Source of the DNA: Bacteroidales bacterium
GTDB taxonomy: Bacteria > Bacteroidota > Bacteroidia > Bacteroidales > UBA932
DNA length: 38,591 bases
NCBI GenBank assembly: GCA_024401925.1
Contig: JAKSKD010000016.1
Location: 1-38,591, forward strand
Reading direction: 5' to 3'
Shown: positions 17,229 through 19,946 of the stretch, piece by piece
Layout: every line of letters begins with the position of its first letter
How positions within the stretch are numbered: position 1 is the stretch's first letter
The notes under the pieces: model-generated
The model's database searches: none
Told to the model about the DNA's origin: nothing
The model's input: the letters and a program-made list of their open reading frames with translations, nothing else
Translations under genes and position numbers: made by a program

Positions 17229-17306
17229 TCCAAATCCTTGAAAGGGGTTTTCCCTAAGCCCCTACTTTTCGGGACGAAGGCTTTTGCGCTTGACGATTGC
17301 CTAATC

Positions 17307-17500
17307 GTGTGCGAAATGGAGGCTTTGCACTTGTTGGTTGCTGAAAAATGACATTCCGTGTGCAGAATAGCGTGTTCTGCACGTATTTCGCCTGTCAGGA
17401 GGTTAATTATGGGCAAAATGGGCGTACATGCCCGTAAAATCGCTGTCTTCCATAATTTTTACGTGCAAATTGTCGCATTTCGCACACGTTTATAGCCTTG
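17307..17500. repeat. Left array of degenerate ~51-bp palindromic repeats
   Basis: Four units start at about 17307, 17358, 17409 and 17460, a spacing of 51 bp each time. Each has a left half like RTGNGCRRAAWG and a right half like TTTGCNCGTA about 7 nt later, so each forms an imperfect hairpin. The second unit has a perfect 8-bp stem (GTGCAGAA, 7-nt loop, TTCTGCAC, 17360-17382). Related units recur downstream of the transposase gene. Sequence identity between units is too low for a CRISPR. Confidence 0.7.
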
Positions 17501-17626
17501 CGCGGAAACAACGACTATTCACAATATAGATTTAAAATAAATGTTTATTTAATGTGTTATTTCCCCTGACTCGACACATGGCAAGTAAGTTAATGTTACC
17601 TTTACTGAAATTAATTTATAATCGAT

Positions 17627-18529
17627 ATGGAGGGTTTGGATTTTATCAAAGATAATGCTGTTAGTCAACAACAAAAGTCCTATTTTCATTTTTGCACCAG
17701 GGAAGATCATCCCGTTATTTTTCACAATGATGACGAATATAAAATAGGAATGAATTTATTCGCGTTGTCATTGAAACTTCATACAGGAATCAGTGTATTG
17801 ACATTTGAACTGATGAGCAACCATATTCATGCGCTTTTTTATGGTGAAGATACTGATATTAGAGCGTGGTTTAAATGTTTCGTGAAACTGTTGAAACATA
17901 ATCTGGACCATGCGTCTGATGCAATCATTTCACTTGAAGGAAAATGCTTCCCGATAAATAATGATGATTATTTAAGAAATACGCTTTTATACATCAACAG
18001 AAATGGGTTTGTGATTTCTCCTGAAGAAAGTCCTTTCAGCTATCCGTGGGGTGCAAATCGATATTATTTCAATCCGGAAGCAAAACTCCGTTTTTCAGTA
18101 TCAAAAAAAGTTTTGAAATTCCGAGAAAAGAGGGCGATGACTCGGAGTGCGTTATTCGACAAGGCAGAGGGACTTTTTCTTGTTGACGGGTACATCTCTC
18201 CTATGTGTTTCTGCGACATAACTGCGGGGGAGAGCCTTTTCCGTAATGCAAGGCAATATTTCACCAAAGTGTCCAAGAACCTGGAATCCAATAAAGATAT
18301 AGCTGCTATAATTATGGAATCGTCCTACTACATTGATGATGATTTATATGCGTATCTGGTTGCTTTCTGTTCAAAACAGTATGGGTGTAAGAATCCGACA
18401 ATGTTGCCGGCCGCAGAGAAAATAGAGCTTGCCAAGAAACTTCATTATGACTTCAATGCGGGAAATAAACAGATTGCCAGAATGCTTAAAATGGATTTGT
18501 CTGCGGTATATTCGCTGTTCCCGTTATGA
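17627..18529 (+). CDS. REP-associated tyrosine transposase (RAYT, Y1_Tnp)
   Basis: A 300-residue single-strand DNA transposase of the IS200/REP-associated class. The HUH pair is in MSNHIHALF (His66, His68). A candidate catalytic Tyr122 lies in YINRNGFV, which aligns with the YIHLNP-type helix of RAYTs, and SPFSYPWGANRYYF matches the conserved Pro-Trp-Ser segment that follows. The C terminus (AGNKQIARMLKMDLSAVYSLF) looks like a helix-turn-helix of the kind appended to RAYTs. No terminal inverted repeats of a classical IS are seen. Arrays of palindromic repeats flank the gene on both sides, which is the hallmark of a REP/RAYT system. RAYTs are usually single copy and vertically kept. Confidence 0.82.
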   Translation: MEGLDFIKDNAVSQQQKSYFHFCTREDHPVIFHNDDEYKIGMNLFALSLKLHTGISVLTFELMSNHIHALFYGEDTDIRAWFKCFVKLLKHNLDHASDAIISLEGKCFPINNDDYLRNTLLYINRNGFVISPEESPFSYPWGANRYYFNPEAKLRFSVSKKVLKFREKRAMTRSALFDKAEGLFLVDGYISPMCFCDITAGESLFRNARQYFTKVSKNLESNKDIAAIIMESSYYIDDDLYAYLVAFCSKQYGCKNPTMLPAAEKIELAKKLHYDFNAGNKQIARMLKMDLSAVYSLFPL

Positions 18530-18568
18530 CATGTTGATTCGTGTTTTTTGCCCAGGAACAGAAACGCC

Positions 18569-18815
18569 GTGAGCTAAATGGGGATTTTACACAGCGAATT
18601 TGAAGAAATATGGGCAGAAAGGCGGGATTTGCACTTGCGCTTGAAGAAAATACTTCATCTTGTGAGCAGAATGGAGTGCTTTGCTCGTAGTTTGCCTCCT
18701 TACACTCGAATTATGAGCGGAAAGACGTCATTTGCTCGTAAAATTGCCAATTCCCAGTATATGCACGTGCGTGATGACGCTATTTGCTCACGTTTCGGAA
18801 AATGCCGTAAGTAAA
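18569..18815. repeat. Right array of degenerate ~51-bp palindromic repeats
   Basis: Five units start near 18569, 18610, 18662, 18713 and 18764, with spacings of 41, 52, 51 and about 51 bp. The clearest are those at 18662 and 18713: GTGAGCAGAATG or ATGAGCGGAAAG, seven bases, then TTTGCTCGTA and a TTTGCC or ATTGCC tail. They share the consensus of the left array across the transposase gene. No protein-coding gene is supported in 18530-18977; a short open frame here only reflects the repeats. Confidence 0.7.
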
Positions 18816-18936
18816 ATTTCTTGATTTGCACATATTTATGGTCGGCTATGGTGATGTCGGAATCGCCCTGTGTCTGTAAACTGATCCAGAACGCACGGCG
18901 GAAACTTGGCTGCGGCAACAAAATGTTTGCGACATT

Positions 18937-19094: not shown

Positions 19095-19946
19095 TTACGC
19101 TTTTGCCTGTGGAGAGTCCGGGTGAATCATCATAAGTTCGATCTTGTTGCCGTCAGGATCGTGTATCCAAGCCTGCCAGTTGAGATCGGAGCCTGTCTTC
19201 GGCTCCTGGTCAATCTCCACGCCTATGGATCTCAAGCGCTCGATATCTTCGAGAAGGCTGTCGGATTCAAGACAGAGGTGACTGAAACCGCGGGAGTTCC
19301 AGCCGATATTAGGGTTTTCTCCCTGGCCGTCAGGAAGCAGTTCCAGATAGACTCCGTCAGCTATTCTGACATAGTGAATCCAAGGCTTGCCTTCGTCATT
19401 TTCCTGGATGCCGACAAGTTTCATTCCGAGTTTGGTGCAATAGAAATCGAGTGAAGCATTGATATCCCTGCATACGAAGCAGGCGTGGCCGATGCCGACA
19501 TATCCGTCCTGCCCGAATTCGTATGGCGCTTCATTGCTCTGCATCTGGATGCATTCAGGTGTGTATTCCTGAAGCTCGATACCGTTGCCGTCCGGGTCAT
19601 AGAGCCAGCGGTTCTTGCACTTGCTTTTTTCGGTTTCCGGCTCCGGGGAGTCTATGTAACCCTTTTTGTGAATCTCTTGAAGGGTTTTGCGGATATTGCC
19701 TACTGTTACGCAAAGATGGTTGTAGCCTGTCTTCTTGAAATCAAATGCGTAGTCGCGATCATTGATTACGTCATAGAAAAGCTCCAGAAAATGCCCCTTG
19801 CATATCTTCATATAGACAATCCAAGGGTCGTCATTGTCGTGGTGAAGTTCAAAGGACTTCTTCCACCCGAACACGTTCTCGAAAAACGCCACGCTCCTGT
19901 CCATATCCAATGGATTAAGGGCAACGTGTGCTATATCCTTTATCAT
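19095..19946 (-). CDS. Tandem VOC-domain (glyoxalase-like) protein
   Basis: A 283-residue protein made of two vicinal-oxygen-chelate domains. Metal-ligand positions are filled in both: His7, Glu55, His77 and Glu124 in the first half, His154, Glu202, His223 and Glu270 in the second. Each half ends in a DPDGNxIEL block. The family includes glyoxalase I, dioxygenases and bleomycin-resistance proteins; the substrate here is not evident. Its ATG overlaps the stop of the upstream transporter gene by one base (TAATG), so the two are translationally coupled and may share a substrate pathway. Confidence 0.88.
   Translation of the reverse strand: MIKDIAHVALNPLDMDRSVAFFENVFGWKKSFELHHDNDDPWIVYMKICKGHFLELFYDVINDRDYAFDFKKTGYNHLCVTVGNIRKTLQEIHKKGYIDSPEPETEKSKCKNRWLYDPDGNGIELQEYTPECIQMQSNEAPYEFGQDGYVGIGHACFVCRDINASLDFYCTKLGMKLVGIQENDEGKPWIHYVRIADGVYLELLPDGQGENPNIGWNSRGFSHLCLESDSLLEDIERLRSIGVEIDQEPKTGSDLNWQAWIHDPDGNKIELMMIHPDSPQAKA

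Follow-up and report, generated by a model that had tools for sequence, protein, structure and literature searches.

The window analysed here, a stretch of 38,591 nucleotides from a Bacteroidales bacterium, holds a gene for a putative transposase between two sets of imperfect palindromes that recur about every 51 bp. This arrangement raises the question of whether the palindromes form true arrays that belong to the gene and, if they do, what kind of system gene and arrays make up together. A sequence-only reading of the same DNA had seen in the gene the HUH and Tyr motifs of REP-associated tyrosine transposases (RAYTs) and had guessed that the locus may be a new subtype. The features of the locus are collected in Table 1.

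Table 1. Features of the enzyme-array locus (positions within the window)
Feature	Position	Strand	Remarks
U1 palindromic unit	17303..17338	+	unit alignment, 10-unit model
U2 palindromic unit	17354..17389	+	top hairpin among the tested window units, z -4.4
U3 palindromic unit	17405..17440	+	unit alignment, 10-unit model
U4 palindromic unit	17455..17491	-	minus strand scores better
RAYT-type Y1 transposase gene (putative)	17627..18529	+	300 aa, ATG start, divergent HUH/Tyr
D1 palindromic unit, degenerate	18564..18599	+	E 0.013 (10-unit model); E 0.29 (upstream-only model)
D2 palindromic unit	18606..18641	+	E 0.004 (upstream-only model)
D3 palindromic unit	18658..18693	+	E 1.8e-4 (upstream-only model)
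D4 palindromic unit	18709..18744	+	E 0.026 (upstream-only model)
D5 palindromic unit, degenerate	18760..18795	+	E 0.008 (10-unit model); E 6.4 (upstream-only model)
D6 palindromic unit, degenerate	18803..18839	+	E 0.005 (10-unit model); E 0.97 (upstream-only model)

Compared with Pfam and NCBIfam, the window protein matched no family at cut-off, Y1_Tnp being reached just at E 0.15. Its relatives were gathered in two alignments, A2 with 40 rows, which includes more distant relatives, and A4 with 68 rows, which holds the closer ones. The NCBIfam model 'REP-associated tyrosine transposase' (NF047646), scanned over A2 and the window protein, matched 19 of the 40 A2 rows at E<=0.01 (best 1.1e-10). 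Pfam Y1_Tnp matched 13 of the same 40 rows at E<=0.01 (best 1.5e-5) and 4 of the 68 A4 rows (best 1.6e-4). Moreover, profile A2 gave a weak sequence match, limited to the HxH region, to the PDB entry 2xm3 'TRANSPOSASE' (E 0.0046), which we take to be an enzyme of the IS200/IS605 type. Because the more distant relatives match RAYT and Y1 models, the window gene is supported as encoding a divergent RAYT (Y1 HUH), an identity that rests on these relatives.

The presumed catalytic motifs of the window protein are H66-x-H68 and Y122. All three residues were invariant in 89/89 family members (89 of 92 loci passed the length filter) and in the 68 A4 rows, which confirmed the HUH/Tyr gene of the sequence-only reading. 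The members are otherwise very divergent: over all pairs of the 89, with within-genome pairs pooled with the rest, the mean identity was 26%, 20 pairs exceeded 60%, and none exceeded 90%. The Y motif of the window protein is YINRNGF and its W motif WG; in the family, the eight commonest Y-motif strings listed contain no NP, and the W motif is WG or WS. Beyond the Y1 core, the window protein carries a C-terminal extension of approximately 150 residues, which is conserved among close relatives. Three C-terminal pieces were compared with Pfam, and neither a convincing match nor a helix-turn-helix (HTH) was found; our impression from the sequence is that the extension may end in an HTH. The left neighbour of the enzyme gene is an HlyD-like efflux gene; to the right there are an apparent tRNA, recognised by reading of the sequence, and a glyoxalase-domain gene. 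The stretch 19095-19946 encodes a two-domain glyoxalase-like protein, for which a match at E<=1e-60 was present in 1 of 61 genus genomes, its own; this gene was therefore unusable as an empty-site anchor for the window locus. No match was obtained with the window DNA against a plasmid collection (megablast) or with the window protein, as a single query, against a genome contig collection.

The regular arrays on both sides of the gene were confirmed as real and beyond chance, with ten units, four upstream and six downstream, in place of the nine first counted. The downstream array ends at about 18839, and D6 thus extends past 17307..18815, the interval that the sequence-only reading had covered. 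The unit-to-unit steps were 51, 51, and 50 bp upstream and 42, 52, 51, 51, and 43 bp downstream; the step of about 51 bp stood, and there were two short steps (42 and 43) rather than one of 41. A sequence-only model was built from the four upstream units alone, so that its downstream matches are free of circularity. Three of the six downstream units are weak on their own, since this model scored them at E 0.29, 0.97, and 6.4. The upstream and downstream sides of the window locus had a similarity of 39, and the highest value in 12 comparisons between loci was 15. The periodicity also exceeded that of shuffled sequence, although modestly (at lags of 50-53 bp the signal was 9, and the highest of 200 shuffles reached 7), and the locus failed the stricter dominant-period cut used in the 110-locus analysis described below.

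The hairpin potential of the window units was uneven. When eight of them were folded as single-stranded DNA, only U2 beat all 200 shuffles, and for the other seven, 10 to 87 of the 200 shuffles folded equally well. A loose compensatory-pairing test on 14 units gave no signal (110 observed vs 110.2 permuted); a stricter test at one stem position, which was picked afterwards, gave p 0.015. The motif GT[AG]G (and C[CT]AC) was missing around nine of the ten units, and D3 has one GTAG, on its 3' side. A CRISPR-like array was rejected by reading only, as the units become more degenerate along the array and those on one side of the gene match those on the other.

Within the genome itself, similar palindromes were found at one other place. 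The upstream-only model gave 17 matches at E<=10 in 75,594 bases, all of them in the window arrays or in one array on another contig (C12:1384-1573). The 10-unit model, run over the whole genome in a search that scored 150 of 642 first-look candidates, gave just three further matches, at E 5.2, 7.8, and 9.3. The C12 array consists of four units of the same repeat as in the window at steps of 50-52 bp, and two of the four fold better than all shuffles. It has in common with the window the spacer TGTCAGGAGG, which lies between U2 and U3; the two arrays are therefore related by copying over more than one unit. No family gene is listed within 60 kb of this solo array on its contig, which starts 1.4 kb to the left of the array. 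The gene after it looks like a formate/nitrite transporter, as we presume. Two other observations concern the same assembly. At C65:35620-36492 there is a fourth family match, which is diverged, contains an in-frame TGA, and is possibly a decayed copy. There are also two recA-like genes (C41:475-1497 and C34:40381-41403, with 86-87% identity to the query), and thus the assembly may be a mixed bin.

Beyond the own genome, many related genes turned out to be flanked by repeats of their own. In 58 of the 89 loci with sufficient flank length (from 92), the two flanks of a gene matched each other above the 99th percentile of cross-locus scores; in the other 31, the match did not go beyond it. In a separate set of 100 loci, which had passed limits on period, flank, and length, a clear upstream-downstream match was present in 66%. 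Among 65 clear pairs, 60 were direct and 5 inverted. Array similarity between loci followed protein similarity: with at most 40 pairs sampled per identity bin of the 100-locus set, a score of 20 was reached by 0-5% of the pairs whose proteins are <50% identical, which is background, and by 91% of the 23 pairs with proteins >70% identical. Many of these genes are thus flanked by private, cognate repeats. Some arrays, such as those of L010 and L037, are long, similar tandem runs.

Whereas the repeat sequences are private, their step is common. In 180 pooled flanks, lags 51 and 52 had the top totals. A 50-53-bp signal above all 200 dinucleotide shuffles was found in 53/92 near flanks versus 8/72 far flanks, where far flanks lie 900-1500 bp away and need 500 bases on both sides and near-flank tests include short flanks; in 39/92 loci there was no such signal. 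A later set of 59 loci (73 minus L297, which is a short match from Verrucomicrobia, and minus 13 that repeated earlier loci, with only copies identical over a 100-residue stretch removed) gave a 50-53 bp step in 49/59, against 3/46 far-flank controls. Since the later set was fetched with patterns of the window's clade, it speaks for that clade. A clear dominant period was present in 71 of 110 loci, at 49-53 or 102 bp in 50 and at another period in 21. On a FastTree protein tree of 109 of these 110 loci (length), the label '49-53 bp' was clustered (21 changes; shuffled mean 35.9, 0/500). Visual inspection of the tree suggests that, with some exceptions, most arrays have a step of 51 bp in the clade of the window protein and of 52 bp in a second clade; three genes that group together have periods of 36, 72, and 73 bp. 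When the palindromes were compared in pairs with the remaining unit <42% identical, the counts still peaked at 51 (88) and 52 (42), other lags from 36 to 67 having 2-30. The step is thus kept after the sequence between the palindromes has been lost, which argues for a constraint on distance.

The proposal that the steps lie close to whole helical turns found no clear support in the family. In 335 flanks, steps of 41, 61, and 62 bp showed no enrichment, and 42 bp, with a count of 30, resembled 39, 48, 54, and 57 bp (24, 24, 21, and 19), which are multiples of three, as in coding DNA. No sharp half-site distance was seen, the inverted-repeat distances forming a broad hump at about 15-35 bp. In 28 loci of a shorter kind of gene, 51 and 52 bp were not dominant (17 and 61 windows vs 384 at 87 bp). 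Other periods were also noted. The gene of L073 (G016), a family member, is flanked by long arrays with a different ruler, a 74-bp period (8.8 and 8.2 copies; about 650 bp upstream and 600 bp downstream). L192, a shorter match from another genus of the same taxonomic family (G260), has 73- and 36-bp lags like the 36/72/73 clade of the main genus.

The family is narrow in its distribution. With the window protein as the query at E<=0.001, matches were found in 33/37 genomes of the same genus group and in 0/24 from other families of the order. With a 40-row profile on 295 genomes of the order, whole-length matches occurred only in genus g1 among the matches listed; in the matches listed from other genera, the N-terminal half or less was covered, and these are taken as probable shorter RAYTs. 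Within the genus, 53 of 62 genomes, a draw from a larger group, had at least one match at E<=1e-25 (median 4, maximum 11). The named relatives are metagenome-assembled genomes (MAGs) of Candidatus Cryptobacteroides, Cacconaster, Egerieousia, or plain Bacteroidales/Bacteroidia, and many come from herbivore guts. The guess of a new subtype is borne out to the extent that this is a lineage-specific family with the same array spacing. RAYTs are not limited to Proteobacteria, as Bacteroidetes RAYTs are already described (Quentin 2018, PMC6006769).

Dispersed copies were searched for with the arrays of six genomes. In G021, the array of one paralogue is matched at six distant sites by elements of 84-90 bp, each made of two palindromes about 52 bp apart; four of the six have no ORF of at least 100 codons over the centre, and two are overlapped by ORFs of 100-174 codons. 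Another array, in G028, has about five matching doublets together with several single units. A G028 doublet folds as one long hairpin (z -8.5), and two G021 doublets gave z -6.0 and -7.2. These dispersed doublets are like REPINs in build. G032 has one other convincing place, G020 one array (on a contig without a listed family gene) and one single unit, and G017 zero dispersed copies in the genome search. Doublets were not seen in these three genomes or in the own genome, where the other copy is the four-unit array. The five relatives have 0 to about 12 other places per genome.

Gain or loss of whole modules of gene and arrays was seen at a recA-like gene, which served as the anchor in place of the glyoxalase gene. 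The gap between this gene and its neighbour, gene X, is about 14, 32, and 47 bp in three genomes; in G009 and G028, enzyme-array modules of two different clades lie between the recA-like gene and the neighbour. Since the site is closed in the former and filled in the latter, modules have been gained or lost there. Of 30 recA loci, 2 contained an enzyme. Gene X was present within 1.5 kb in 7, of which 3 were nearly closed and 4 had other DNA in the gap, and the remaining 21 had neither within the stretch available. G003 (L104) and G011 (L105) share, at 94% identity, a 2.2-kb block that includes an enzyme gene, and this suggests a recent transfer. In L105, an element of about 98 bp is present three times, at distances of 1.1 and 1.5 kb. 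Different family enzymes adjoin the same conserved genes in five groups of loci (L032, L080; L050, L051, L058; L011, L021; L063, L111; L025, L043, L059), and we read these neighbours as presumably recA, cysS, prfA, aspS, and a U32 peptidase gene.

Taken together, we consider it likely that a divergent RAYT here works with private cognate arrays equivalent to REPs and uses as its substrate two hairpins at a set distance. The palindromes would fold into hairpins in single-stranded DNA, for example in the lagging-strand template, and the enzyme, probably a dimer that acts as the ruler, would bind two neighbouring hairpins 51-52 nt apart. By nicking and rejoining the DNA beside the hairpins, it would lengthen or shorten the array beside its own gene in 51-nt units. 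Occasionally, two hairpins together (a REPIN-like element of about 90 nt) or a short block of several units may be exported to other sites, and the solo array may have been copied by the enzyme in such a way; any benefit to the host would be conjectural. The step length would follow the enzyme clade, and the hairpin sequence would drift with each enzyme. That the repeats are the substrates of the enzyme we infer from the cognate pairing and from the dispersed doublets in two relatives. Counting against this reading, four of the six genomes searched show little or no dispersal, and seven of the eight window units tested are weak hairpins. A further generalisation, which we put forward tentatively and regard as possible but somewhat doubtful, is that these are an unrecognised class of array-building HUH enzymes in which the enzyme, rather than the DNA sequence, sets the unit length. 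There would then be clade rulers of 51 or 52 bp (perhaps 36/72), and paralogues would rewrite the sequence of their own arrays at unchanged unit length, giving several mutually private pairs per genome.

The main rival to the hairpin reading, which we judge unlikely, is that the arrays are duplex binding sites, operators or anchors, for the C-terminal part of the protein. They would serve autoregulation or DNA organisation, about five turns in 51 bp would place the sites on one face, and the HUH domain would be a remnant or have a separate job. The weak hairpins of most window units fit this proposal, as do the exact spacing retained where the sequence between the palindromes has diverged and the position of the arrays close to the gene on both sides with rare dispersal in four of six genomes. 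HTH-like C-terminal domains are, in addition, described for RAYT subclass 2.1 (Quentin 2018, PMC6006769). However, H, H, and Tyr are invariant in 89/89, which speaks against loss of the nuclease function, there is no clear excess of steps that differ from 51 bp by one helical turn, the three C-terminal pieces have no Pfam HTH match, and G021 and G028 contain dispersed doublets.

We also hold it to be rather improbable that the enzyme is an ordinary member of subclass 2.6 or 2.1, two known RAYT groups (Quentin 2018), with the usual repeats, in which only the host range would be new. According to that study (PMC6006769), to which all the following comparisons with class 2 refer, typical REPs lie beside five subclasses and atypical structures beside 2.6, whereas no REP-like repeats are reported beside 2.1 and 2.3, and the REP-less subclasses have a large conserved C-terminal domain. 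Subclass 2.6 is found mostly in Bacteroidetes, and its flanking structures, weak atypical hairpins without GTAG, have copies elsewhere; profile A2, for its part, also matches the N-terminal half of genes in other Bacteroidales families. Subclass 2.1 and the TIRYTs resemble the family in carrying a C-terminal extension after the core domain. Nevertheless, the family protein of about 300 aa exceeds the medians of 179 (2.6) and 238 aa (2.1), and the YINRNGF of the window protein, like the eight commonest strings listed for the family, lacks the NP present in every class 2 subclass (YIH[QN]NP in 2.6; YIELNP or Y[IV]HLNP in 2.1), in a comparison made by motif rather than by tree. The family's WG or WS likewise differs from the W[EQ], FQ, WE, WQ, and W[YH] of class 2 (WQ in 2.6), and its up to 11 matches per genome from class 2 means of 1.0-3.9 (1.8 in 2.6). 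TIRYTs have terminal inverted repeats, whereas most clear paired arrays here are direct. Full-length matches, moreover, occur only in genus g1 among the matches listed, and the 28 loci of the shorter kind lack a dominant 51-bp lag.

It seems to us equally improbable that the gene and both arrays make up a single autonomous transposon, similar to IS200/IS605, which moves as a unit with its long repeat ends. The same orientation of paired arrays in 60 of 65 clear cases would be expected of such an element, and the recA-neighbour site, closed in three genomes and occupied by modules of different clades in two others, together with the 2.2-kb block shared by G003 and G011, is consistent with it. 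However, the members are very divergent (mean identity 26%, none >90%), unlike an active IS, and the gain or loss at the recA site could be due to recombination or transfer. Plain tandem repeats arising from replication slippage or unequal recombination, unrelated to the enzyme, could give long similar runs such as those of L010 and L037, but this is very improbable, as it provides no reason for 51-52 bp in dozens of unrelated arrays beside these genes but seldom 900-1500 bp away, or for arrays on both sides of one gene together with isolated doublets at distant sites.

The preferred reading, a divergent RAYT with private cognate arrays, can be set beside the known REP systems. Compared with canonical REPs, the window units lack the GT[AG]G 5' foot, and the many intergenic copies are absent, the own genome having one other array and the relatives 0 to about 12. 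The REPtron or REP-RAYT arrangement (TnpA-REP) is alike in that, according to Quentin 2018 (PMC6006769) and the Di Nocera group 2013 (PMC3733652), a Y1 HUH gene lies between private palindromic repeats, with one repeat per paralogue. It differs from the present system in that the window units have no such foot; in the family, moreover, the C-terminal extension is long, the W and Y motifs are different, many genomes have several and up to eleven matches, dispersed copies are scarce, and one step is common to unrelated repeats.

A search of the open-licence literature found no description of the family or of a step common to unrelated repeats. REPINs have been studied in Pseudomonas fluorescens SBW25, in work that we take to be that of Bertels and Rainey. 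As reported there (PMC3116915), each is a dispersed palindrome doublet that forms one hairpin, clusters lie beside the RAYT gene, and the step is fixed per group (71 bp in GI, 110 bp in GII), with hundreds of doublets. In the present family, by comparison, the 51-52 bp step extends over dozens of dissimilar arrays, and there are about 0-12 other places per genome. Our best reading is that the family probably represents a new RAYT subclass with a conserved ruler and with cognate REPIN-like arrays of low copy number, set apart from the published subclasses by its length, motifs, and copy number.

How and why RAYT genes persist with private repeats is an open question raised in Quentin 2018 (PMC6006769). 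The family also combines features that this study assigns to separate groups, repeats in some RAYTs and large C-terminal domains in others. Since the window member matches no Pfam or NCBIfam family at cut-off, such systems may be overlooked in annotation. The family offers dozens of natural enzyme-array pairs in one genus group, in which the repeats have diverged beyond recognition and the spacing has been retained. With so many pairs and one spacing, two points become open to experiment: the way in which a RAYT recognises its own hairpin, and whether the recognised substrate includes the spacing of two hairpins.
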